Shown: positions 2,348 to 16,308 of the stretch, piece by piece
Numbering within the stretch: position 1 is the stretch's first letter
Layout of the letters: each line of letters begins with the position of its first letter
IMG/VR virus record: IMGVR_UViG_3300010885_011866
Location: 1-29,900 of that record
DNA from: a virus
Strand: one strand, 5' to 3'
DNA length: 29,900 nt
Translations under genes and position numbers: made by a program
The notes under the pieces: generated by a model
Seen by the model: only the letters and a program-made list of their open reading frames with translations
Database searches by the model: none
What the model was told of the DNA's origin: nothing

Positions 2348-4647
2348 AGTTCTGCGGATTTATTTATGCGATTAATTTTATCTTGTACTGATGTTACTTG
2401 AGTTTCACTTACTACAGCCGTAACGGTCATTGATGAACTACTGGATCCACCACCTGCACTAAAACTCCCTCCTGTGTTAGCACTACCGAATAATTGTGCA
2501 GCCTGTGGTAAAGCTGTGGCTGCAGAAGTAGCTCCACTTCCTGTAGCACCACCACCTCCACTACCTCCGCTAGGGGTTGCACCTGGTGATGATAGTATCT
2601 GCTTAGCCTTAGCTACGTTAGTAGCAATCTGTATGATACCTGTAGCAAATTGAGCAATACCTGCTGCACCTGCTGAGACAGCATTCAATGGATTAGCTTG
2701 TGAGTTAGCTACCAAAGCACTAATGGCCTTAGCCGTATCTATACCTATTTGAACTAGAGCAGATGCCTTATTGAATTTAGCTAACTTCTCCTGGTCTTTA
2801 ATAAGCATCCCTCCTATATCAGTAATACCTTTAGCAATATCTCCTGCTAATGCTATCCTAGCATCTCTTACTTTCTGATCCTCTTCTATTTGTTTTAATG
2901 TGGCCTGTGTATTAATATCAGCAAGAGCTTTTTTGTGGTTGGCTTCTAGTATCTCCAAAGCTTTTTGATTACCCATTGCCATCTCTTGCTCTTTCAGATA
3001 CTTAGCATCAAGCTCTGCTATTCTCTTCTCTTCTTCTGTAGTGGTAAGTTCAGTAAGCAAATCACTTGCAGCCTTTACCTTATCTTTCATCCTAGCAGTT
3101 TCTTCTTGTATCTGCATAGTGTTGTAAATATCTAGCTTCTCTTTTAGCTGTTCTGCTGTTAATCTAGTATCTGCTACGGCTGCATCTCTTAGTTTTTTAT
3201 ACTTGTCATTTTGTATTACTAAATCCTTTTCTGCACCTTCTGCCATAGCCTCTAATCTAAGCTGAGCTAATTCATTTTCTACTGCTATAGTAGTCTTTCT
3301 AGCGGCCTCTCTTTTTGCTTCTAATTGTTTAGCCTCCTCTGCATCTGCTTGTTGAGTTAAAGTTATTTTGTCTTTTGCTTTTAGTTTAGCATCTGATGCA
3401 ATATCCTCTCTTTGTCTTTTGAATTTTTCATTTATTATCGCTTCCTCTTTAGCTAGTCCCTCCTGCATTATAGATAGCTCACCATCTTTAATTTTTCTTG
3501 CAGCACTTAATGCATTAGCAGCTTCAGTTTTAGCTAATGAGACAGCATCTTTCTTTTTAGTATCACTCTTCTTTTTAGCATCTTCGGCTGCCTCTTTCTC
3601 AGCATTTTTTTTATCATTTATTAGTTCCTGCTCAAATACGGCCAAATCATTAATAGCATCTAACTTAGCTTTATTAGCTTTTTGGTTCATATCATAATTA
3701 TCCTTCACAGCAGCCGCCATCTCTTTCTCAAAAGCTTTCCACGCAGTATAGTCTCCTGTTTCCTCAGCACTTGCTCTTAGCTCAGCTACCGTTAATTTAT
3801 TTTTTGCTTTTAGTTGTTGGCTTATTGCATAGGTTTCACTTTCGATGCTCCTTTGGTAAGAGATAGCAGCCTTTAATCTTGTCCTTTCTAATTCAGTAGT
3901 ATCCTTACCTTGAGCTTTTAATAGCTTGATTTGTCTACCTAATGCATCATCAGAATCATCGTATATTTTTTGCTTACGTTCAAATGCCCTTTGTTGTGCC
4001 TCTTGCTCTTGTTTAATTTGAGCTAATACAGCCTCTGAGTTTTTCTTAGCTTGTTCTGCTCTCTCATCCTCAGCAAATGATGTAAGCCCTAGTGCATCTC
4101 CTAGCCATTTTAAAGCATCTATAATAGCATTAATGGGAATCATTATATAATCTAGTATCGTACCTAGTATCCCTATCTTATCTAAAAAATAACCTACTGC
4201 CGCCACAATAGCTACAATTATAGCTACTAATAAAAAAATTGGATTCATTAATATAGTCATCCCTAGCTTTACAAATGCACCACCTAGTGTACCTAGCATA
4301 GTAATAAATTGTCCCATTCCTCCTAGTAGCTCTTTAGGGTTTAGTTTCCCCATAGTCATAGCTAGAGTCTTAGCCTTGCTAGATGCCTCTTCGAAGTCAA
4401 GGCTCATCAAGCTATCCTTAATACCACCAATTCCATTACTTACTTGCTCAAATTTTGAGCCTGTAGCAAATACGTTAACAGCTTCATTAGCATCTGCTAT
4501 CTTGTCTTTAAGTACACCCGCTTCCTGTGATAACCTAGCAATGTCTGCAGGGTCAGTAGCGTTTGCTATCTCACCTTTTAATGCTCTTGGTTCTGCTTTT
4601 ATTTCTCCTAGTCCTGAGACTTTTATAGGTATTTCTACTTCATTCAT
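2344..4647 (-). CDS. Tail tape measure protein (767 aa)
   Basis: This is the tail-length ruler and assembly scaffold. It is a long helical protein. A strongly hydrophobic stretch at about residues 114-155 could insert in the host membrane during DNA entry. A very long Lys/Glu/Ala-rich coiled coil covers roughly residues 205-620. A Gly/Ser-rich C-terminal segment (GGSGGGGATGSG) follows. With the usual 1.5 angstrom rise per residue, 767 residues predict a tail near 115 nm. It is coupled to the next gene by an ATGA overlap and lies one base from the stop of the upstream baseplate gene. The paired chaperone-like genes usually found upstream of tape measures are here on the other strand. Confidence 0.88.
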   Translation of the reverse strand: MNEVEIPIKVSGLGEIKAEPRALKGEIANATDPADIARLSQEAGVLKDKIADANEAVNVFATGSKFEQVSNGIGGIKDSLMSLDFEEASSKAKTLAMTMGKLNPKELLGGMGQFITMLGTLGGAFVKLGMTILMNPIFLLVAIIVAIVAAVGYFLDKIGILGTILDYIMIPINAIIDALKWLGDALGLTSFAEDERAEQAKKNSEAVLAQIKQEQEAQQRAFERKQKIYDDSDDALGRQIKLLKAQGKDTTELERTRLKAAISYQRSIESETYAISQQLKAKNKLTVAELRASAEETGDYTAWKAFEKEMAAAVKDNYDMNQKANKAKLDAINDLAVFEQELINDKKNAEKEAAEDAKKKSDTKKKDAVSLAKTEAANALSAARKIKDGELSIMQEGLAKEEAIINEKFKRQREDIASDAKLKAKDKITLTQQADAEEAKQLEAKREAARKTTIAVENELAQLRLEAMAEGAEKDLVIQNDKYKKLRDAAVADTRLTAEQLKEKLDIYNTMQIQEETARMKDKVKAASDLLTELTTTEEEKRIAELDAKYLKEQEMAMGNQKALEILEANHKKALADINTQATLKQIEEDQKVRDARIALAGDIAKGITDIGGMLIKDQEKLAKFNKASALVQIGIDTAKAISALVANSQANPLNAVSAGAAGIAQFATGIIQIATNVAKAKQILSSPGATPSGGSGGGGATGSGATSAATALPQAAQLFGSANTGGSFSAGGGSSSSSMTVTAVVSETQVTSVQDKINRINKSAEL

Positions 4648-4648
4648 T

Positions 4649-7528
4649 TTATATGTAGTATTTAATTTCTATTGTTGTTCCATCAAGATATCCATCTACA
4701 AAGCCTACCCCTATTTGAGTGGTGGTAACAGATACGCTATTAGAGCTTGTGGAGTATTGTGCTGAGATTACCCCATCAAAGTTTACGTTGCTAATCATTA
4801 TAGTAGGCACATTAGTGCTAGAGATAAATGAAGGCTCATAAGCATCTAAGTATCCCTCATATGTACCTACTCCTGTTCTGGTCCAGGTAACTCCACCTAA
4901 GCTATCATTTTTAACCTGCACTATAGGATCTGTTATTCCTGCCTGTGTTAAGTTAGCTATGTAGATTAATGGCACTGTACCTGTAGCTACTCCATTTAAA
5001 CTATTAACCACTAGGTGATTAGTTGCTAGAGTAGTTTCACTGATGATATAGTCATCTCCTACTACCACTGATCTAGTGCCACCAACTATCACATTACCCC
5101 TACCCATAACCATAGCATTAGCTTGATTAGAGAATACATTAGAAGTAGTCATTCTAGTAGTGTTAACATTGCTCATTGCTAACATTTGTATAGGTCCTAT
5201 TCCTGCAGGTGGGTTTGGGATTACCGGGCCATTAGGTCCTGTAAAAGGTGCAAAGTTAATTTCAGTATCAATACTTATGAGCTCTACTTTAGTTAACTTG
5301 TTAGCGTTTGCATCATAGTCAATTATTTTGTTTATGTTCCACCAACTATTATCAATTCGTATCTTGTCATTTAACTTCATTGCCTGAATATCCGGCTCCT
5401 TAAGGTTAAACATAGCAGTCAACATCTTACCGTTATTTATTTGACCCATTGTTCGCCTCCAGTATCTATTGTAAAGATTATTTTCTGTTAGGCTACTAGG
5501 TTGATAATAGTAGAAGTCGCAAATTGCGTAATTAATATCAAAAGTAGGAGTCAACGGGTCATCAAAGTGACCAACTAAAGGATAGTTTGTAAGATTGATT
5601 TGACCAACGCTACCATAATCATATATATAAAATTGTCCACAGGTAGCTAATGGTTGACCTGCTGTAGTTTTATCATATAATATTCTTATATTAGTTTCCG
5701 GTGCTGATCCAGCTATCATAGGAACATAAGCTCCAAATACAGTTTTAATTACAGGAGTAGGTGAAAAAAGTACAGACTTAGTAGTTATTTCCTTAACGTA
5801 TTCATTATCAAAAATTACTTCAGCTTGTCCATAGATATTATTGGTAGCATTCGTGTAAGTGGTGTTTGGATTATCTTTGTCAGCCGTGTAGCTTAATATT
5901 ATTTTCTTGCTTGTTATCTCGGGTAAAAATGATAAGCTCTGCTCTTGGTCTTTAGCTAATTTATAAGTCCAATCTACCTCTGTACCGCTATCGTAAAAGT
6001 CATCTCTATTTTGCAAGAGTAACTTATTAGGTTGAGTGCTATCAACTTGAGCATATATGTTATACATATTAAAGATTCCTTTAATGAAATCGCTTTGCTT
6101 TATCTTCTTAGGTACATAGTCGTTTACTTCTATTGTGCCACCTATCGCATAGATTGTACTACTAGGAACAATACTAATTTGAATATTAGATATAACAGCT
6201 TGTATAACGATTTGCCCTGAAGCAGGAGCTACACCGGATGGGGAAGTTTTCCTCCAACTTCTAACAGATGGTGCATTCCCTATAGTTGCATATTGTTGGC
6301 TGACATTTAAACCTATAGTGGCTGATTGTAAATTATTAAGTAAATTGTAGCTAAGAGGTATATTAGTCTGTACTGTTTGTGTTAATAAAGTAGTAGTACC
6401 ATTATTAATAGTTAAAGGGGATTGAACAGCATTTTGTACACCAAACAATGTAGCCGTTGGTGATGTATTAGTATAAAGATTACTAAAGATAATAGGCTGA
6501 GTCCCTGCACTTACTCCAATAGCAGGTTTGTAAAATACATTGGCTGCTACACCACCGGGAGCGCTACCATATAAAATACCTCCCGAGCTATTCACTAAGT
6601 TTAATGTGTAGGTCATAGTAACGCTGTAATCGTAGCTTTGAGCATTTGCTGAGCTTATAATAAAAGGAGTAGTATAAACACCTGTTACAGGGTTAAAAAT
6701 ATTCTGTATATCTTCTAGCTCTGTCCAAGCTGTTAAGTTAATCTTAGTAGCAGCAGATTGTGCGGTAGCTACTTGAGCTATATTAGAGAAGCCTGCCCAA
6801 TTGTTAGCTCCATTGATAGTAGTTGGCGCTGTCTTTTCTGCTTTAACTAGGTAATCGTTATAATCAAAGTTATCAACACCACCATTATAAGGTATGAGCA
6901 ATTGTTGAAATCTATCGTAGGACATTGTCGGCCAACTATAAGTAAATCCAGCATCTTGGAATATCCTATCTAAATAAGTCTTTGCAAATATAGCCGGCTT
7001 GAATTCTTGCGTATTGTATACAGCATCACCTGATCCAGGGAGAAAGTACTTGAATCCATTTACTACAGTGTTACTAAATCTAGCTACTACATTAAAAGCG
7101 TCATAAGGGTGGTTAAGGTCGCTAAAGTCTATATCGGTTAATTCCTTGTTAGCAATGGCTGTAAAGAAGTCGGCCTTAGAGTCTTTAATTAGCACCTCAT
7201 AGGTTACCTGCTCTTCATAGCCATCTGTGAGCTGTGACTTAACTACTCCTGTTAATTGCAAAGAGCAATCTTCCATTATTGGTATGCCGTCTTGAATAAC
7301 AGCACAAGTAGTAAGGACATTTATGTTGAATGTTCCCTCAACTATATTTACATCGTAATAATGATTTAGTAAATTGTTGTTATTCTTGCTTCCGGTTAAA
7401 GTAATAGTCTTAGAAAAACTTCCTTTCCTTTGGCTTATATCTCGTATGTCCCCGGCTTGAAAATTAAGAGGAAAAGCTGTTCCTTCCTTAACATCTAAGA
7501 ATCCTGTAGCGAGTTGTATCTTAACCAT
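4649..7528 (-). CDS. Baseplate hub / tail-tip protein with trimeric fibre-like segment (959 aa)
   Basis: This large tail-tip protein directly precedes the tape measure in the operon. Its N-terminus (FPLNFQAGDIRDI then SFSKTITLTGSKNNNN) matches a pattern I associate with tail proteins of Bacteroidota siphophages. The middle is beta-rich. A Pro/Gly hinge (FTGPNGPVIPNPPAG) lies near residue 763. After it, about residues 800-825 repeat an N-A-x-V-x-G / V-x-G-G / V-V-V-G-D pattern like the left-handed beta roll of YadA-type trimeric adhesin heads, suggesting a host-contacting trimer. The ATG overlaps the end of the preceding tail gene by 8 bp. Hub function is inferred; the fibre-like segment is visible in the sequence. 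Confidence 0.68.
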   Translation of the reverse strand: MVKIQLATGFLDVKEGTAFPLNFQAGDIRDISQRKGSFSKTITLTGSKNNNNLLNHYYDVNIVEGTFNINVLTTCAVIQDGIPIMEDCSLQLTGVVKSQLTDGYEEQVTYEVLIKDSKADFFTAIANKELTDIDFSDLNHPYDAFNVVARFSNTVVNGFKYFLPGSGDAVYNTQEFKPAIFAKTYLDRIFQDAGFTYSWPTMSYDRFQQLLIPYNGGVDNFDYNDYLVKAEKTAPTTINGANNWAGFSNIAQVATAQSAATKINLTAWTELEDIQNIFNPVTGVYTTPFIISSANAQSYDYSVTMTYTLNLVNSSGGILYGSAPGGVAANVFYKPAIGVSAGTQPIIFSNLYTNTSPTATLFGVQNAVQSPLTINNGTTTLLTQTVQTNIPLSYNLLNNLQSATIGLNVSQQYATIGNAPSVRSWRKTSPSGVAPASGQIVIQAVISNIQISIVPSSTIYAIGGTIEVNDYVPKKIKQSDFIKGIFNMYNIYAQVDSTQPNKLLLQNRDDFYDSGTEVDWTYKLAKDQEQSLSFLPEITSKKIILSYTADKDNPNTTYTNATNNIYGQAEVIFDNEYVKEITTKSVLFSPTPVIKTVFGAYVPMIAGSAPETNIRILYDKTTAGQPLATCGQFYIYDYGSVGQINLTNYPLVGHFDDPLTPTFDINYAICDFYYYQPSSLTENNLYNRYWRRTMGQINNGKMLTAMFNLKEPDIQAMKLNDKIRIDNSWWNINKIIDYDANANKLTKVELISIDTEINFAPFTGPNGPVIPNPPAGIGPIQMLAMSNVNTTRMTTSNVFSNQANAMVMGRGNVIVGGTRSVVVGDDYIISETTLATNHLVVNSLNGVATGTVPLIYIANLTQAGITDPIVQVKNDSLGGVTWTRTGVGTYEGYLDAYEPSFISSTNVPTIMISNVNFDGVISAQYSTSSNSVSVTTTQIGVGFVDGYLDGTTIEIKYYI

Positions 7529-9019: not shown

Positions 9020-9196
9020 TTATTTTGTGTTCGTGTTTTTAAAGGCGTCCATTGCTATCATATATGCGTGGTCTAACATAGCTAGGTGTTGCTGCACCCT
9101 ATCCGGCCTATCAAAGACTATCCTTACCACCTTGCCGGTCTTGTGGTGTATGTAGGCCTGTACTACTTGGATCTTATGTAAGGTATTAGAATGCAT
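9020..9196 (-). CDS. Small hypothetical protein (58 aa)
   Basis: This short gene lies between terL and the first tail gene. The ATG at 9194-9196 overlaps the end of terL by 11 bp, and the TAA is at 9020-9022. The product starts MHSNTLHKIQVVQAYIHHKT and is basic and His-rich, with predicted strand-strand-helix structure. It fills an otherwise empty 190-bp gap and is tightly packed with terL, which supports it being real. Function unknown. Confidence 0.62.
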   Translation of the reverse strand: MHSNTLHKIQVVQAYIHHKTGKVVRIVFDRPDRVQQHLAMLDHAYMIAMDAFKNTNTK

Positions 9197-10334
9197 AGTA
9201 GGAGTTATCTGTGTAATACTCCTGCCTTATGTGAGTAGTGGCATATCTGATAGCGTCCATAGCATCATCAAATAATTTTACAGGCTCATCTGTTATGAAG
9301 TCCCCTATCTTTTTCCATTTATAGTTTTCATATTCCCTCCTTAGTGCCTTATCATCCTGGCATATTACTCCAAAGGTCTTAACATTATCTATTCCTTTTT
9401 TTACTACTTTGTTAGCGTTCTTAACATTATAACCGGCTGTGTTCATCTCCTTTATTATTTCCGGCCTGGAGTGATCAGCTAAAATTGCAACGGTTTGCTC
9501 TACTGCTAATACGGCAAGTTTTTCTATCAACATAGTAGTAGTAAGGTAACTTTCATATATCACAGGCTCTATGTAAATGTCATTGTCGCAATAATATACC
9601 CTTACTAAAGCACTTGGATGGTTATACCCAAAATCTAATCCATATACAAAATTGACGAACCTTTCAGGCTTATTTGAAACAAAACTCCAGTTAGCATAGA
9701 TGTTACTTTTACTTGTGGCTTTTTCACCTAATGCATAAATTTGATACATTGCTTCATCTGTTCTTTTCAGATCCTCTATTTGTATCTTGATGCTATCCGG
9801 TAAGAATGGATTATCTTTGTACGTAGACTTTATTAATGTAGTTTCGTGTTTTGGTAGTTCATAAAGCCAAGATGAACTATCTGAAGGATTATAATCAAAG
9901 ATAAGTTTATCTTCAGTACGCATATTTAATTGGGTGAAGTCATCAAAAAATAATTCGTTGGCTTCATTGCACCAAGCTATATCCCTTTTACGGCCCCTTA
10001 TTTTTTGCTCGTCATCGACTGAAAAAAACTCTACCATTGACCCATTGGCAAAGGTATATATATGCTCAGACTTATTATGTGAATTTTGATTATATAATCC
10101 TGTATCTTTAAGGATCTCTATGAAGTCCCTAAGTACCGTAGCTCTTAAGGCCGGGAATGTCTTCCGGATAACGCTGACTACCTTATTGTTATTTTGAAGA
10201 CAATAGATAATCATTAGCTGACACAGGCTGTAGGTCTTAGATGACCTTGACCCTCCCTCGTTTATGATAAAGCGTTTGTCTCCTGTGATAGCCTCATAGT
10301 TCTTCTCAAAGATGACTGTGCTTTTAATTTCCAT
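9186..10334 (-). CDS. terL: Terminase large subunit (382 aa)
   Basis: This is the ATP-driven DNA-packaging motor and headful nuclease that docks on the portal. The ATPase half shows a Walker A-like GGSRSSKT at residues 27-34 and a Walker B with catalytic Glu in DIAWCNEA (118-125, Glu124). The RNase H-fold nuclease half shows Asp234 in GLDFGYNHP, Asp287 in ILADHS, and the acidic group DDAMD (356-360). Length is normal for compact PBSX-like large terminases. It follows the small terminase by 3 bp and overlaps the next tiny gene by 11 bp. All expected catalytic residues are present. Confidence 0.96.
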   Translation of the reverse strand: MEIKSTVIFEKNYEAITGDKRFIINEGGSRSSKTYSLCQLMIIYCLQNNNKVVSVIRKTFPALRATVLRDFIEILKDTGLYNQNSHNKSEHIYTFANGSMVEFFSVDDEQKIRGRKRDIAWCNEANELFFDDFTQLNMRTEDKLIFDYNPSDSSSWLYELPKHETTLIKSTYKDNPFLPDSIKIQIEDLKRTDEAMYQIYALGEKATSKSNIYANWSFVSNKPERFVNFVYGLDFGYNHPSALVRVYYCDNDIYIEPVIYESYLTTTMLIEKLAVLAVEQTVAILADHSRPEIIKEMNTAGYNVKNANKVVKKGIDNVKTFGVICQDDKALRREYENYKWKKIGDFITDEPVKLFDDAMDAIRYATTHIRQEYYTDNSYYAF

Positions 10335-10337
10335 TTA

Positions 10338-10670
10338 TTAGGTAGGCTTAACTATATTTACTTTAATTTCATTTATAGTTTGTTCTAGTGTTTGGTCTAT
10401 TTGTTGCAAAGGTGCACCATATCCGGAATCCATCAAGGCCTTGTAAGCAGATACATCACCCTCCCTTGCTTTTTTAATAAGCGCTAAGGTCATTAAATCC
10501 TCTTGGCTCATTATTTCCTTTTCTCCTGTTAATGGGTTCTTTAAAGACTGATTAACTTCTAACCATTGTCTTGCTATTGTGCTTCTGTTTTTAGTTCCCT
10601 TAGGTCTTCCGGCGGGGTTGCCACTTTCGCCTTTATTCCAAGCTGGCCTTAAATTATCTTCTTTATTCAT
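10338..10670 (-). CDS. terS: Terminase small subunit-like protein (110 aa)
   Basis: This is a DNA-recognition partner of the large terminase. The N-terminus contains WNKGESGNPAGRPKGTKN (residues 11-28), the basic GNPxGRPKG signature of DUF5681-type proteins that commonly sit just before terL. The rest is helical, with a segment (LIKKAREGDVSAYKALMDSG) that suits oligomerisation. The packaging-site sequence itself cannot be identified by eye. It is encoded 3 bp upstream of terL and 19 bp after the ABC-GNAT gene. Confidence 0.85.
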   Translation of the reverse strand: MNKEDNLRPAWNKGESGNPAGRPKGTKNRSTIARQWLEVNQSLKNPLTGEKEIMSQEDLMTLALIKKAREGDVSAYKALMDSGYGAPLQQIDQTLEQTINEIKVNIVKPT

Positions 10671-10689: not shown

Positions 10690-11751
10690 TTATATTAATT
10701 CAAAACTTGCGGTCATTCTATTTGCTTTTCCGGATTTTCCGCATTTATTATTTCCCCCGGATTCTATTCTTCCAAAATGATGGCAATTCCATTTATCTGA
10801 TTTCTTTAAAGCGTGTATTAAACTTGGAGCTGTAGTATTAATAGTATAACGCCATTTATCTAATTTATAAATATGTCCTATTTCATTTAATAGTTTTAAT
10901 CCTATACCCGCTCCTTGGTAATCCGGCAGTATAACTAACCTATGTACTCGCTTTTGTCCTTTCATTCTGCTTGGCTGTGCTATTACACTTATGAACCCGG
11001 CTATTTCATCATTCACTGTTGCTATAAATACATTAGCTGCATTATTATGTGAATGACTTAGATAGTGGTGCTTAGCAAACATTTTCCAAATTGATTTATC
11101 TCTGTAATTGAATATTTCAAATTTAATTTTTGGTCTATTTTTTTTTTGCCCTTCAAAACTTTGAAAGGTCATTGTATCTGTATTAAATACCCAATCCGGC
11201 AAGAGCCAATCCTGAACATCAAAATGACAAGTGACTGCTATAAATTGTTTATCCGTTTTTCTGATAGCTTTCTGCATAGCAAACGATCCTATTTGTGCAA
11301 CGTTTCTATCTACTACACTTGTAAATTCATCAAACACAAAAAACTTTTGGTCTTCTAATATTGCTCTTGCTAAATCAACCCTCATCTTTTGTCCGTTACT
11401 TAGAACCGAATAAGGCTTCAACCAACTTGGTGGACTACTAAACCCTACGGAATTAAATGCAGATGTTATTTGTTCTACAGTACATTCTTTAGGCATATCA
11501 TCTAATACCGTTCCTTTCGTGTATTCGTATGAAGTTACATAAGCGTTTTCAAATAATTGTTTAGCTATTGTAGTTTTTCCAGTACCACTTTTTCCTACAA
11601 TTAAACCTATTTGCCATTTTTCAGGTATATCAATATCTCCTTTAAAATGTTCTACAATGTTCTCTGATTGTAAATCAAACTTACCAATAACCGAAGCAAC
11701 TCTAAATGTTTTGCTTGCTTTGGATTCTTTTATAATGTCAAAAGTCGGCAT
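10690..11751 (-). CDS. ABC-type ATPase fused to GNAT acetyltransferase domain (353 aa)
   Basis: Residues 1-195 are a complete soluble ABC ATPase: Walker A GKSGTGKT (53-60), signature LSNGQ (117-121), Walker B FFVFDE (137-142) and H-loop His176. There are no membrane segments, so it is not a transporter by itself. Residues about 208-353 form a GNAT-like acyltransferase, with the acyl-CoA motif RLVILPDYQGAGIGLKLL at 271-288 and a HHYLSHSH cluster at 228-235. The gene overlaps the ParB-fold gene by 22 bp. GNAT enzymes can modify DNA bases (Mu Mom makes carbamoylmethyl-adenine), proteins or small molecules. A DNA-directed, ATP-gated acyltransferase is an attractive inference but unproven. Confidence 0.88.
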   Translation of the reverse strand: MPTFDIIKESKASKTFRVASVIGKFDLQSENIVEHFKGDIDIPEKWQIGLIVGKSGTGKTTIAKQLFENAYVTSYEYTKGTVLDDMPKECTVEQITSAFNSVGFSSPPSWLKPYSVLSNGQKMRVDLARAILEDQKFFVFDEFTSVVDRNVAQIGSFAMQKAIRKTDKQFIAVTCHFDVQDWLLPDWVFNTDTMTFQSFEGQKKNRPKIKFEIFNYRDKSIWKMFAKHHYLSHSHNNAANVFIATVNDEIAGFISVIAQPSRMKGQKRVHRLVILPDYQGAGIGLKLLNEIGHIYKLDKWRYTINTTAPSLIHALKKSDKWNCHHFGRIESGGNNKCGKSGKANRMTASFELI

Positions 11752-12245
11752 TCGTATCCCTCCTCAATTAATTTGTTATAACTATTTTCTTGATGCTCTT
11801 CATCCTTACATACTATTTCAATACGATATAAATTATCTATTGTACTGGATAAATCATTTAATTCAATTTCATCGTCTTTAAAAATAGGTAAGTCTAACCC
11901 CCACTCTTCTAATTTATCAGTATCCCATTCATTTGCTAAAGTATCCCAATCCCATTCTCCAAATCCTACGTTATCTTTAACTATAAATTCGTCTTTTTGC
12001 TGATCCGTTAAGTCTTCTGCTTTCACAATAAATACTTCTTTAAGTCCAACTTCAATACACGCTTTTAATCGCATATTTCCACCCAATACAATATTATTTT
12101 CATCTACAACTATTGGTCGAAGCTCCAGCATTTGAGGAAATTCCTGTATTGACTTAACTAACTTCTTAAACTTATCATCTTTTATTAAGCGTGGGTTCTT
12201 TGGGTTGGTTTTTATTTCCGATATTTTAACCTTCAGTACTTTCAT
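11730..12245 (-). CDS. ParB/Srx-fold nuclease-like protein (171 aa)
   Basis: Residues 1-80 show the ParB N-terminal pattern: KISEIKTNPKNPR at the start, then IVVDENNIVLGGNMRLKA, where the GGNxRxxA box is the nucleotide/DNA-contacting motif. The rest is acidic, Trp-rich (GEWDWDTLANEWDTDKLEEW) and ends in a small alpha/beta segment. The HTH and dimer domain of a partition ParB are not evident, and no ParA is present, so plasmid-style partition is unlikely. Such stand-alone ParB-fold proteins are common near phage terminases and DNA-modification genes. It overlaps the downstream ABC-GNAT gene by 22 bp and the upstream small gene by 20 bp. Confidence 0.85.
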   Translation of the reverse strand: MKVLKVKISEIKTNPKNPRLIKDDKFKKLVKSIQEFPQMLELRPIVVDENNIVLGGNMRLKACIEVGLKEVFIVKAEDLTDQQKDEFIVKDNVGFGEWDWDTLANEWDTDKLEEWGLDLPIFKDDEIELNDLSSTIDNLYRIEIVCKDEEHQENSYNKLIEEGYECRLLTL

Positions 12246-14403: not shown

Positions 14404-14502
14404 TTAGTGTTCATTATTAAAAAAATCCATTATGTAAATTATTGTAGCTGTCCAACCCCACACAATCGCAGGGGCTAATAAAATTGATAGTAGTGTTATC
14501 AT
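14404..14502 (-). CDS. Membrane mini-protein (32 aa)
   Basis: The ATG at 14500-14502 overlaps the TGA of the Gp88-like gene (ATGA), and the TAA is at 14404-14406. The 32-aa product (MITLLSILLAPAIVWGW and onward) is almost entirely one hydrophobic helix with a short polar C-terminal end. The ATGA junction is repeated throughout this genome at real gene pairs, which supports translation. Function unknown. Confidence 0.5.
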   Translation of the reverse strand: MITLLSILLAPAIVWGWTATIIYIMDFFNNEH

Positions 14503-15113
14503 ATTGTTTGTTTTTTTGAATATTTCATATTGTCAAGTAATGCAAAATTTATGTTTGGTATTCTTGCAAATTTATCATTTGTATCTATTGGCCTATCTGC
14601 AGGTACTTCTTCAAGACTTGCATAGACTTTAACATTTTTTAAATTAAATTTTTCTATTAAATCATCAGTCTTCCCACCATAACTTGCAGTTAAAATTAAA
14701 TTATTTGGGATCTCATTTAATCTATTTATCCAATATTTTAAAGACTTTGTATACGCCCACATTTCAATATTTGGGTTTTCTTCTGCTAATTTTATCCACA
14801 TATCAAAATACGCTTGATTAAAAAAGTCACCGCTTGAATGAATACGAATTGCTTTACAGTCTTTAGGAATTGTAGGAGTCCCTCCATTTTTTACAAAGTC
14901 AAAATTATTATGCCTATGATTTCTAACTCCAGGGAATCTTTCGGCACTTGACGCATAACATCTATATTGTCCTTTTGTAACATCAAATTTTCCAGTTACT
15001 TTATCAACTACTACTTTACACTCCATTGCAAAAGGGCAAGTTGTTCCTGTTGGTAAATTATATTCATAAACTTCACCAACATAATATGTTTTTTTCTTTA
15101 CGAATTTGCTCAT
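14499..15113 (-). CDS. Gp88-like cysteine protein (204 aa)
   Basis: The sequence resembles the phage Gp88 family named after a mycobacteriophage gene. It has CPFAMEC near residues 26-32 and a third Cys in QYRCYASSAERFP (52), then IHSSGDFFNQAYFDMW at 91-106 and MWAYTKSLKYW at 118-128. The Cys trio plus SGDFF pattern suggests an enzyme with a metal or Fe-S centre, and some relatives look like TIM-barrel radical enzymes; no reaction is established that I know of. It is coupled by ATGA overlaps to the YqaJ nuclease upstream and to a 32-aa membrane protein downstream. Confidence 0.72.
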   Translation of the reverse strand: MSKFVKKKTYYVGEVYEYNLPTGTTCPFAMECKVVVDKVTGKFDVTKGQYRCYASSAERFPGVRNHRHNNFDFVKNGGTPTIPKDCKAIRIHSSGDFFNQAYFDMWIKLAEENPNIEMWAYTKSLKYWINRLNEIPNNLILTASYGGKTDDLIEKFNLKNVKVYASLEEVPADRPIDTNDKFARIPNINFALLDNMKYSKKQTI

Positions 15114-15784
15114 TTTAATTTAATTAATAAGTCATTATAATATTCCCGGCATTCTTCTATTCGTGTTTTAATCTCTTCTATTACTTCGTTATCTCTTTCT
15201 ATTATAAACGTCTTTAGGCGCTTTTCTTTTGGGATATGACCAAATGTATGTTTAGCCTGTACAAAGTCCCTTAAATTTAAGTCTTCCTCGATTAAACTTG
15301 CCTTCCAGTGTTCACGTCTTATTTCATCTTCAACTATTTGTAAAGGGGTGTCAATTAAACAATAACATAAAAGGCTTTCTTGTTTGCCGGTCAACCACAT
15401 ATATCCTTGTAATTGGTAAAAATAAGACTTATTAGTTAATTTAGTATCAAAAAATGGAAACGTTGTTGCATCGTAACTTGACTTTACATCTAAAAGGATC
15501 TCATTTGTATTTACATCCGGTGTCCCTGTAATCCAATCATTAGTAAAATGTTCTTCGTTTTTATATATGAATCCTAAATCCAGTACATCATTACATAAAG
15601 CAATTGAAAGGTCTTCTACTTCATTTCCTTTGTCGGTATATCTGCTTGAAAACTCTTTTCTTATTCCGTAAACTTCCTCAATAGCTAATTCTTGGAGGTA
15701 AGTCTTAGTAGTTTGGCTTAACAACTCCCCCTTTGTTTTAGGGGAAGTCATTATTTTGCCTATAGATGAACATCTTATTTTCAT
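15110..15784 (-). CDS. YqaJ-type viral recombinase exonuclease (224 aa)
   Basis: This is a PD-(D/E)XK-fold exonuclease of the lambda Exo/YqaJ type. It would resect double-stranded ends to give the single strands used by the ERF annealing protein encoded just upstream. GTPD at residues 87-90 supplies Asp90, LLDVKSS at 97-103 supplies Asp99 and Lys101, and the downstream QLQGYMWLTG (124-133) is the helical motif typical of this group. Length is normal. It is coupled to the ERF gene by ATGA at 15781-15784 and to the Gp88-like gene by ATGA at 15110-15113. Confidence 0.9.
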   Translation of the reverse strand: MKIRCSSIGKIMTSPKTKGELLSQTTKTYLQELAIEEVYGIRKEFSSRYTDKGNEVEDLSIALCNDVLDLGFIYKNEEHFTNDWITGTPDVNTNEILLDVKSSYDATTFPFFDTKLTNKSYFYQLQGYMWLTGKQESLLCYCLIDTPLQIVEDEIRREHWKASLIEEDLNLRDFVQAKHTFGHIPKEKRLKTFIIERDNEVIEEIKTRIEECREYYNDLLIKLK

Positions 15785-16308
15785 TGTAAAATAAGTTTAG
15801 TTTGTTCAGGTGTTAATTCAAATGTCTTTAGCAGCTCATCGGTAGTATATTCTCCCTCACTTATTGCCTTAATTGCCTTTGCTAGTCTTTTATCGTCAAT
15901 AGCAACTTTCTTAGATTCGTTTTTTACTTCAGTTTTAATTTGTTCTCCACCGGCATCTGTATCTTTATCGCTAACTATTCCTAGAATACTACTTAAAGCA
16001 TATCTACGTAAGTAAGTAATTGCAGATCCTAAAACTTGAAAGTCATTCATACCTTTCAATTGTACTCCCTGTGGAATAGCTGTTATGCTTTCTATTGTTT
16101 CGCCACTTTCAGCGTGGAAAACAATTGTTACTAATTGAGCTCCATTAATTAATTGAGTAAATCCTAATCCGTATTTTTTTAATATTGGATTAATTACCTC
16201 AAATATTTTTGGTAAATCTGCATAAGTATATCCATACCCTTGCGTTGCTTTGTGAATTGTTGGAACTTCCTGTTGGAATTCTGCTAGACTTTTAAATAAA
16301 TGTTTCAT
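15781..16308 (-). CDS. erf: ERF-family single-strand annealing recombinase (175 aa)
   Basis: This is a ring-forming single-strand annealing protein for phage recombination and genome circularisation. It shows the ERF pattern: YTYADLPKIFEVINPILKKYGLGFTQ split over residues 27-52, then GSAITYLRRYALSSILGI and DKDTDAGG (about 97-124). The C-terminus is a charged linker and a short helical tail. The partner exonuclease follows at once. The leader is AATTAACCAAATG, one of several A-rich starts without a Shine-Dalgarno site. Confidence 0.92.
   Translation of the reverse strand: MKHLFKSLAEFQQEVPTIHKATQGYGYTYADLPKIFEVINPILKKYGLGFTQLINGAQLVTIVFHAESGETIESITAIPQGVQLKGMNDFQVLGSAITYLRRYALSSILGIVSDKDTDAGGEQIKTEVKNESKKVAIDDKRLAKAIKAISEGEYTTDELLKTFELTPEQTKLILQ

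Follow-up and report, generated by a model that had tools for sequence, protein, structure and literature searches.

The window, by which we mean the whole stretch of DNA analyzed here (29,900 bases), is a tailed-phage contig of 33% GC. Its terminase is nearest to the terminases of Parabacteroides phages (33% identity), so the host is likely a member of the Bacteroidota. The locus lies on the minus strand with all of its features. A gene for a ParB/Srx-fold protein (171 amino acids [aa]; positions 11730 to 12245) overlaps by 22 bp (11730 to 11751, from the open reading frame [ORF] coordinates) a gene for a fusion of an ABC ATPase and a GNAT acyltransferase (353 aa; 10690 to 11751, from the ORF list and Pfam-type and PHROG matches); both sets of coordinates, and the overlap, agree with the initial annotation. 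Beyond the fusion gene lie a gene for a DUF5681 protein (10338 to 10670; PF18932, E 3e-14) and, directly after it, the gene for the large terminase subunit, terL (9186 to 10334; Terminase_3, E 5e-28). The ABC-GNAT gene had been described as the neighbor of terS, and the position stands, whereas the name is given by none of the libraries; the DUF5681 gene is a plausible terS by position only.

The whole ABC-GNAT protein matched phrog_11143 (E 9e-98). Its ABC half (about residues 1 to 200; 11152 to 11751; ABC_tran, E 1e-10) carries no membrane domain. The Walker A (GxSGxGK), signature (LSxG), and Walker B (DE) motifs are invariant across 12 aligned divergent homologues, as are D148 of the D-loop and H176 of the H-loop; the complete motif set first read from the sequence is thereby confirmed, and the half has the Walker A, LSGGQ-type signature, Walker B, and D- and H-loops of the ABC ATPase superfamily. 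The GNAT half (148 aa; 10690 to 11136; GNAT families, E 4e-8) has the acyl-CoA motif and the fold of the GNAT superfamily: the motif QGxGxG, called intact from the outset, is kept in >90% of 91 homologues, and the predicted model is a confident GNAT fold (pLDDT 89.6). Against solved structures, the best Z scores were 15.1 to a GNAT acetyltransferase and 14.7 to RimI, and the nearest folds among the matches listed were generic GNATs, RimI, and Naa50-type protein acetyltransferases. From a defense-system library came nothing beyond partial matches to ABC proteins (mad3, mad8) and a ParB-type methyltransferase.

Relatives of the fusion were collected from viral contigs (181 candidate stretches from one scan; at least 590 by profile scan) and from bacterial and archaeal genomes (432, many in Planctomycetota). 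The gene immediately upstream encodes a ParB protein in 149 of the 150 testable viral relatives, at 64 of the 73 genome loci, and in 14 of the 22 named phages; of the 149 viral pairs, 148 share the identical 22-nt overlap, which recurs at 28 genome loci and in 5 phages. On the downstream side, terL was found within 2.5 kb in 84 of 97 distinct viral loci. Since terminases are also the commonest recognized downstream genes in the genome loci, many of those loci are, by gene content, prophages. The conserved ParB-ABC-GNAT neighborhood, which the initial annotation had put forward as something to look for, is thus real and far above chance. Judged from its genes and their order, the window locus is a member of a widespread phage and prophage module made up of a ParB/Srx-fold protein with a putative docking tail, an ABC ATPase, and a GNAT domain.

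Several neighboring genes were recorded along the way. A formyltransferase-domain gene (PF00551) follows ABC-GNAT in a Porphyromonas phage and in Komp_PAO1_1 (L090:5125-5598 and L094:5107-5724), possibly hinting at the transferred group or at a companion step, and an aspartate decarboxylase gene (PF02261) stands directly after it in the Gordonia/Rhodococcus phage Jace (L088:5101-5526), where a supply of CoA or beta-alanine would be a possible link. In Streptococcus phage MismyG (L084:5117-5485), an ASCH-domain gene comes directly after split ABC and GNAT genes; in Klebsiella phage pJN2-26 (L103:1644-5058), two ParB-like proteins, an ABC protein, an unknown protein, and an annotated acyltransferase are encoded by separate genes before the terminase. 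Elsewhere in the window, a GP88-family gene (14499 to 15113; PF17338, E 7e-29) adjoins exonuclease and ERF recombination genes (15110 to 16308), and a putative phage protease (28307 to 29386; Peptidase_S78_2) has a weak match to a PHROG named DNA methyltransferase, a name that is probably an artifact there.

The 171-aa protein matched ParB_N (PF02195) above the cut-off (E 4e-6), and Foldseek with its AF2 model (pLDDT 90.8) retrieved ParB/Noc/sulfiredoxin N-domains (E 6e-6 to ParB). ParB_N was the only match above the cut-off over the 171 residues, with no helix-turn-helix (HTH) domain recognized, and the model holds a low-confidence linker and one tail helix instead of a second globular HTH domain; the central HTH DNA-binding domain by which partition ParB proteins are defined is not found in this protein. 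Its fold is shared with ParB, Noc, KorB, and sulfiredoxin N-domain proteins; unlike them, it has no recognized HTH or C-terminal dimer domain, and it has a tail motif of its own. The ParB domain is nearest to those fused to DNA methyltransferases (phrog_498; PADLOC MTase_II).

The C-terminal tail (11733 to 11828, delimited by profile conservation) reads YRIEIVCKDEEHQ...EGYECRLLTL in the window protein. These last ~35 residues are among the best conserved parts of the protein and are kept across phyla, with the consensus ..IxVxCxxExxQExLYxxLxxxGYxCRxLTL. The tail profile also matched stand-alone ORFs of 49 aa in Pseudomonas phage Komp_PAO1_1 (E 2e-10) and of 42 to 65 aa in a Porphyromonas phage (E 1e-6); both (L090, L094) overlap the start of ABC-GNAT, and no ParB gene was found at either locus. 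In two Planctomycetota genomes (L188:5266-7101, L204:5356-7110), the ParB domain, the tail, the ABC ATPase, and the GNAT domain are joined in a single polypeptide (584 aa in one genome, 611 aa in the other). The tail is therefore a candidate ABC-docking motif that probably docks the ABC ATPase part, and from such binding the ParB, ABC, and GNAT domains would work as one complex. As a portable docking motif, it would offer a simple interaction open to testing.

Between the two halves of the fusion lies a junction element (11132 to 11177) that was absent from the observations of the initial annotation. It comprises a predicted RNA hairpin of 8 bp with a 4-nt loop that ends 1 nt before the A run (11149 to 11168; CCUUUCAA-AGUU-UUGAAGGG in the mRNA), an A10 tract in codons 202 to 205 (11138 to 11147; CAA AAA AAA AAT) that is a candidate slippage site, and, directly after the tract in the -1 frame, a UAG (11135 to 11137) that is the predicted end of an ABC-only product. 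The window reads GGG CAA AAA AAA AAT AGA CCA at this point, with the A10 run in frame, and the run is the sole A/T run of at least 9 in the window.

Codon statistics at the junction were taken over 81 relatives, all <95% identical. The codons of Q202, K203, K204, and N205 are invariant in 81/81, compared with 51 to 96% AAA for Lys, 56 to 96% AAT for Asn, and 60 to 94% CAA for Gln in other conserved columns. Gly201 is GGG in 68 of 73 (1 to 23% GGG in other conserved Gly columns), a bias that can be explained by the hairpin arm. In all 81, the first -1-frame codon past the run is UAG or UAA, even where Arg206 is replaced by Lys. A synonymous-constraint scan of the gene gave two main peaks, at codons 2 to 10 and codons 199 to 210, and the first, expected and with the overlap itself marked at codons 2 to 7, serves as a positive control because most of its codons overlap the ParB gene.

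Compensatory double changes were seen in five of the eight pairs of the hairpin. Cells changed on both sides numbered 22, compared with 5.6 in shuffles, and no shuffle out of 500 reached 22; these counts are inflated by kinship, with several independent-looking events underlying the covariation. Among seven registers, that of the hairpin had the best covariation score, the slid registers coming nowhere near it. Its mean energy was -8.2 kcal/mol as observed and -3.4 kcal/mol in synonymous-codon reshuffles, and G-U pairs are kept (U-G at one pair in 43 of 45 sequences). A covariance model found no further copies of the element in 60 loci, and a limited literature search found no earlier report of it, which does not of itself prove novelty.

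An A10 run alone is not rare in such DNA: in this AT-rich gene it survived synonymous reshuffling with a probability of 0.64 per sequence, and a simple Markov model predicted about one A10-type run per window. The case for the element therefore rests on the invariance, on the covariation, and on the A10 run in GC-richer relatives (kept at 47 to 52% GC in L153, L173, and L179). A chance product of AT-rich DNA was rejected on the invariance and the covariation, a lone A10 being unsurprising; conservation owing to a second overlapping gene was also rejected, only short unsupported ORFs being found there.

In about 25 relatives, the ABC and GNAT halves are in different frames, and among viral contigs and genomes nearly all of these breaks fall at a run of 9 to 11 A's, exactly at the linker. 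In several frame-broken relatives, the GNAT frame offers no start codon until after conserved residues, so that recoding would be needed there for a complete GNAT domain. Run lengths A9 and A11 were specifically searched for among the relatives, and the length in DNA is near-fixed, with A10 in 123 distinct contexts, A11 in 4, and A9 in 2; metagenomic assemblies can miscount homopolymers, which affects single A9 or A11 copies and not the A10 majority. The zero frame ends at once in the A11 copies, which are close relatives, and one extra A is needed to reach the GNAT frame in the A9 copies. The A9 lineages are without the hairpin, and plain slippage or ribosomal frameshifting may suffice for them. 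Many distant relatives (those of Planctomycetota and most named phages) are fused without any A run, so the family as a whole does not depend on recoding.

Two groups of divergent copies were also noted. In Firmicutes phages L082 to L085 (around 4573 to 4678) and L099, ABC and GNAT are in the -1 frame relative to each other without an A run, and in L082 to L085 no start codon precedes the conserved HHY motif; this could be read as a frameshift at an unrecognized site or as loss. Split relatives L100 (position 4513, A AAA AAG) and L187 (position 6612, G GGA AAG) have classical slippery heptamers near the junction.

We consider it probable that the hairpin and the A10 tract direct programmed transcriptional slippage yielding two proteins, ABC alone (205 aa) and ABC-GNAT (353 aa). 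Two marks of a slippage site are present in the sequence, namely, a conserved homopolymer of at least 9 A/T in a coding region and a 5'-adjacent stem-loop. The nascent hairpin, at the upstream edge of the 9- to 10-bp RNA-DNA hybrid, would promote slippage of the polymerase on the ten A's, which equal the hybrid in length. Transcripts with 10 A's would encode ABC-GNAT, those with 11 A's would encode ABC alone, ending in QKKK at the stop directly in the -1 frame, and those with 9 A's would also encode ABC alone (lengths computed from the window: 205 aa with one extra A, 230 aa with one fewer). Both products could form ABC heterodimers in which one subunit only bears the acyltransferase, with the ParB-like partner held in the complex by its tail.

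Two described systems resemble parts of this arrangement. In Thermus thermophilus dnaX, slippage on A9 produces two subunits at 1:1, and stops in the other frames lie near the run (PMC5009743; PMC1088944); in the IS630 element of Roseiflexus, a 5'-adjacent nascent stem-loop enables transcriptional slippage (PMC5009743). With the former, ABC-GNAT shares an A run within an ATPase gene, a full-length product in frame, and a nearby stop after slippage, but the gene is another one and a covarying hairpin abuts its run. With the latter, it shares the nascent-RNA stem-loop 5' adjacent to the slippage motif, but the Roseiflexus motif is U5C5 and slippage is required for the transposase, whereas ABC-GNAT has A10 and two products are expected. 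By analogy, the ABC-GNAT junction would combine features of both. A single nucleotide is enough to make the two products trade roles (PMC5009743), a remark that the A11 and A9 variants fit, since the zero frame ends at A11 and an extra A is needed at A9. In certain organisms of very high AT content, slippage on runs of this kind may be suppressed (PMC1088944).

Instead of the polymerase slipping, it could be the ribosome that shifts to the -1 frame on A AAA AAA, with UAG next in that frame, as happens in E. coli dnaX. The in-frame A AAA AAA is a slippery heptamer of the X XXY YYZ form, the -1-frame stop is as immediate as in E. coli dnaX, the A AAA AAG and G GGA AAG of L100 and L187 lie at the same junction, and the GGG a little upstream could act like a Shine-Dalgarno stimulator. 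We nonetheless regard ribosomal frameshifting as unlikely: no stable 3' stimulatory structure was found, the downstream 76 and 106 nt folding worse than shuffles (z +1.2 and +2.0); the conserved structure is 5' adjacent, the arrangement of polymerase slippage; and the A11 relatives would require the opposite direction. Mutational phase variation, with the A10 tract as an on/off switch, could draw on the A9 and A11 variants among close relatives and is very unlikely, the run length in DNA being near-fixed. Least probable is that the inverted repeat and A tract act as DNA, for instance in packaging near terS, and are no expression signal. The element does lie upstream of terS/terL, and inverted repeats, protein-bound ones included, covary at the DNA level too; against this view, the kept G-U pairs fit RNA, the stop that follows the run is conserved, and the A9 relatives without the repeat are the frame-broken ones.

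Slippage at the junction would act on a module for which no substrate was known in the literature searched, although the module was predicted more than 10 years ago. PMC7824862 states that acylation of a DNA base was the role predicted in 2013 for an ABC ATPase-coupled GNAT, and it cites QAX98348.1. That protein, from Aeromonas phage AsFcp_2, is a member of the ABC-GNAT family; it is 34% identical to the window protein over 90% of the protein (tblastn) and aligns across both the ABC and GNAT domains, with all ABC and acyl-CoA motifs in common. On this alignment, the window protein belongs to the family treated there. The system of Iyer et al. (2013), as given in that text, is thus homologous over nearly full length with the same motifs; it differs in that ParB is named 0 times and no junction element is reported in the text available. 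An acyltransferase acting on DNA had been thought little described when the locus was first annotated, yet the prediction for this same family was already in print; the DNA-modification idea is not new, and the new result is the junction element.

Tentatively, and with somewhat less than even confidence, we favor acylation of the phage's own DNA by the module, an ATP-gated modification against host restriction in which ATP-driven clamping on DNA would let the GNAT domain act before packaging. The earlier prediction, made for a family that includes the homologue QAX98348.1 (PMC7824862), speaks for it, as do the closeness of the ParB domain to those fused to DNA methyltransferases, the adjoining terminase, and, in Porphyromonas phages, the location of the gene close to the extreme right end, where Mu has mom. 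Against it stand the lack of profile similarity to Mom, the N-terminal protein acetyltransferases among the nearest folds, and the ParB protein, for which guidance to DNA stays hypothetical because no HTH was recognized in it.

The likeness to Mom drawn in the initial annotation did not hold beyond the superfamily. Comparison of Mu Mom with the GNAT half by hhalign gave a probability of 0.3%, with no profile similarity, and the two fall in different PHROGs (phrog_1384 for Mom, phrog_11143 for ABC-GNAT). Mom was not among the PDB and viral structure matches listed (VIA-align, Foldseek), where a missing row is no evidence; the matches listed there are generic GNATs, and kinship was rejected on the negative profile comparison. 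Mom has in common with ABC-GNAT the GNAT superfamily, by published assignment, and the similar genome position in the Porphyromonas phage relatives; it differs in showing no detectable profile similarity and in being accompanied by com, not by ABC or ParB genes. What stands of the original proposal is the conserved ParB, ABC, and GNAT set, with DNA modification plausible; the tie to Mom and the claim of a little-described idea fall away.

It is also possible, in our estimate a weaker prospect than DNA acylation, that a protein (host polymerase, ribosome, or phage packaging proteins) or a small molecule is what the GNAT half acetylates, with ParB and ABC in a regulatory role. The fold of that half is nearest to generic GNATs, RimI, and Naa50, and modification of host RNA polymerase by phage GNATs has precedent (Rac, cited in PMC7824862); fold similarity, however, does not reveal the substrate, and acetylation of this kind leaves unexplained why a ParB-fold protein and an ABC ATPase are tied to it. 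Joining slippage and DNA acylation gives a more doubtful picture, in which stem-loop-stimulated slippage on A10 would set how many ABC-only subunits there are per ABC-acyltransferase subunit in an ATP-gated, ParB-associated complex that acylates DNA just before packaging.

The junction element gives a testable handle on the module, namely, which of the two products is made and at what ratio. If slippage takes place there, it would be a rare natural case of stem-loop-mediated polymerase slippage, in phages, giving two ATPase subunits from one gene in the manner of dnaX. Gene callers and studies that take frame-broken copies for pseudogenes, or for "ABC transporter" plus "hypothetical protein," would then need correcting.
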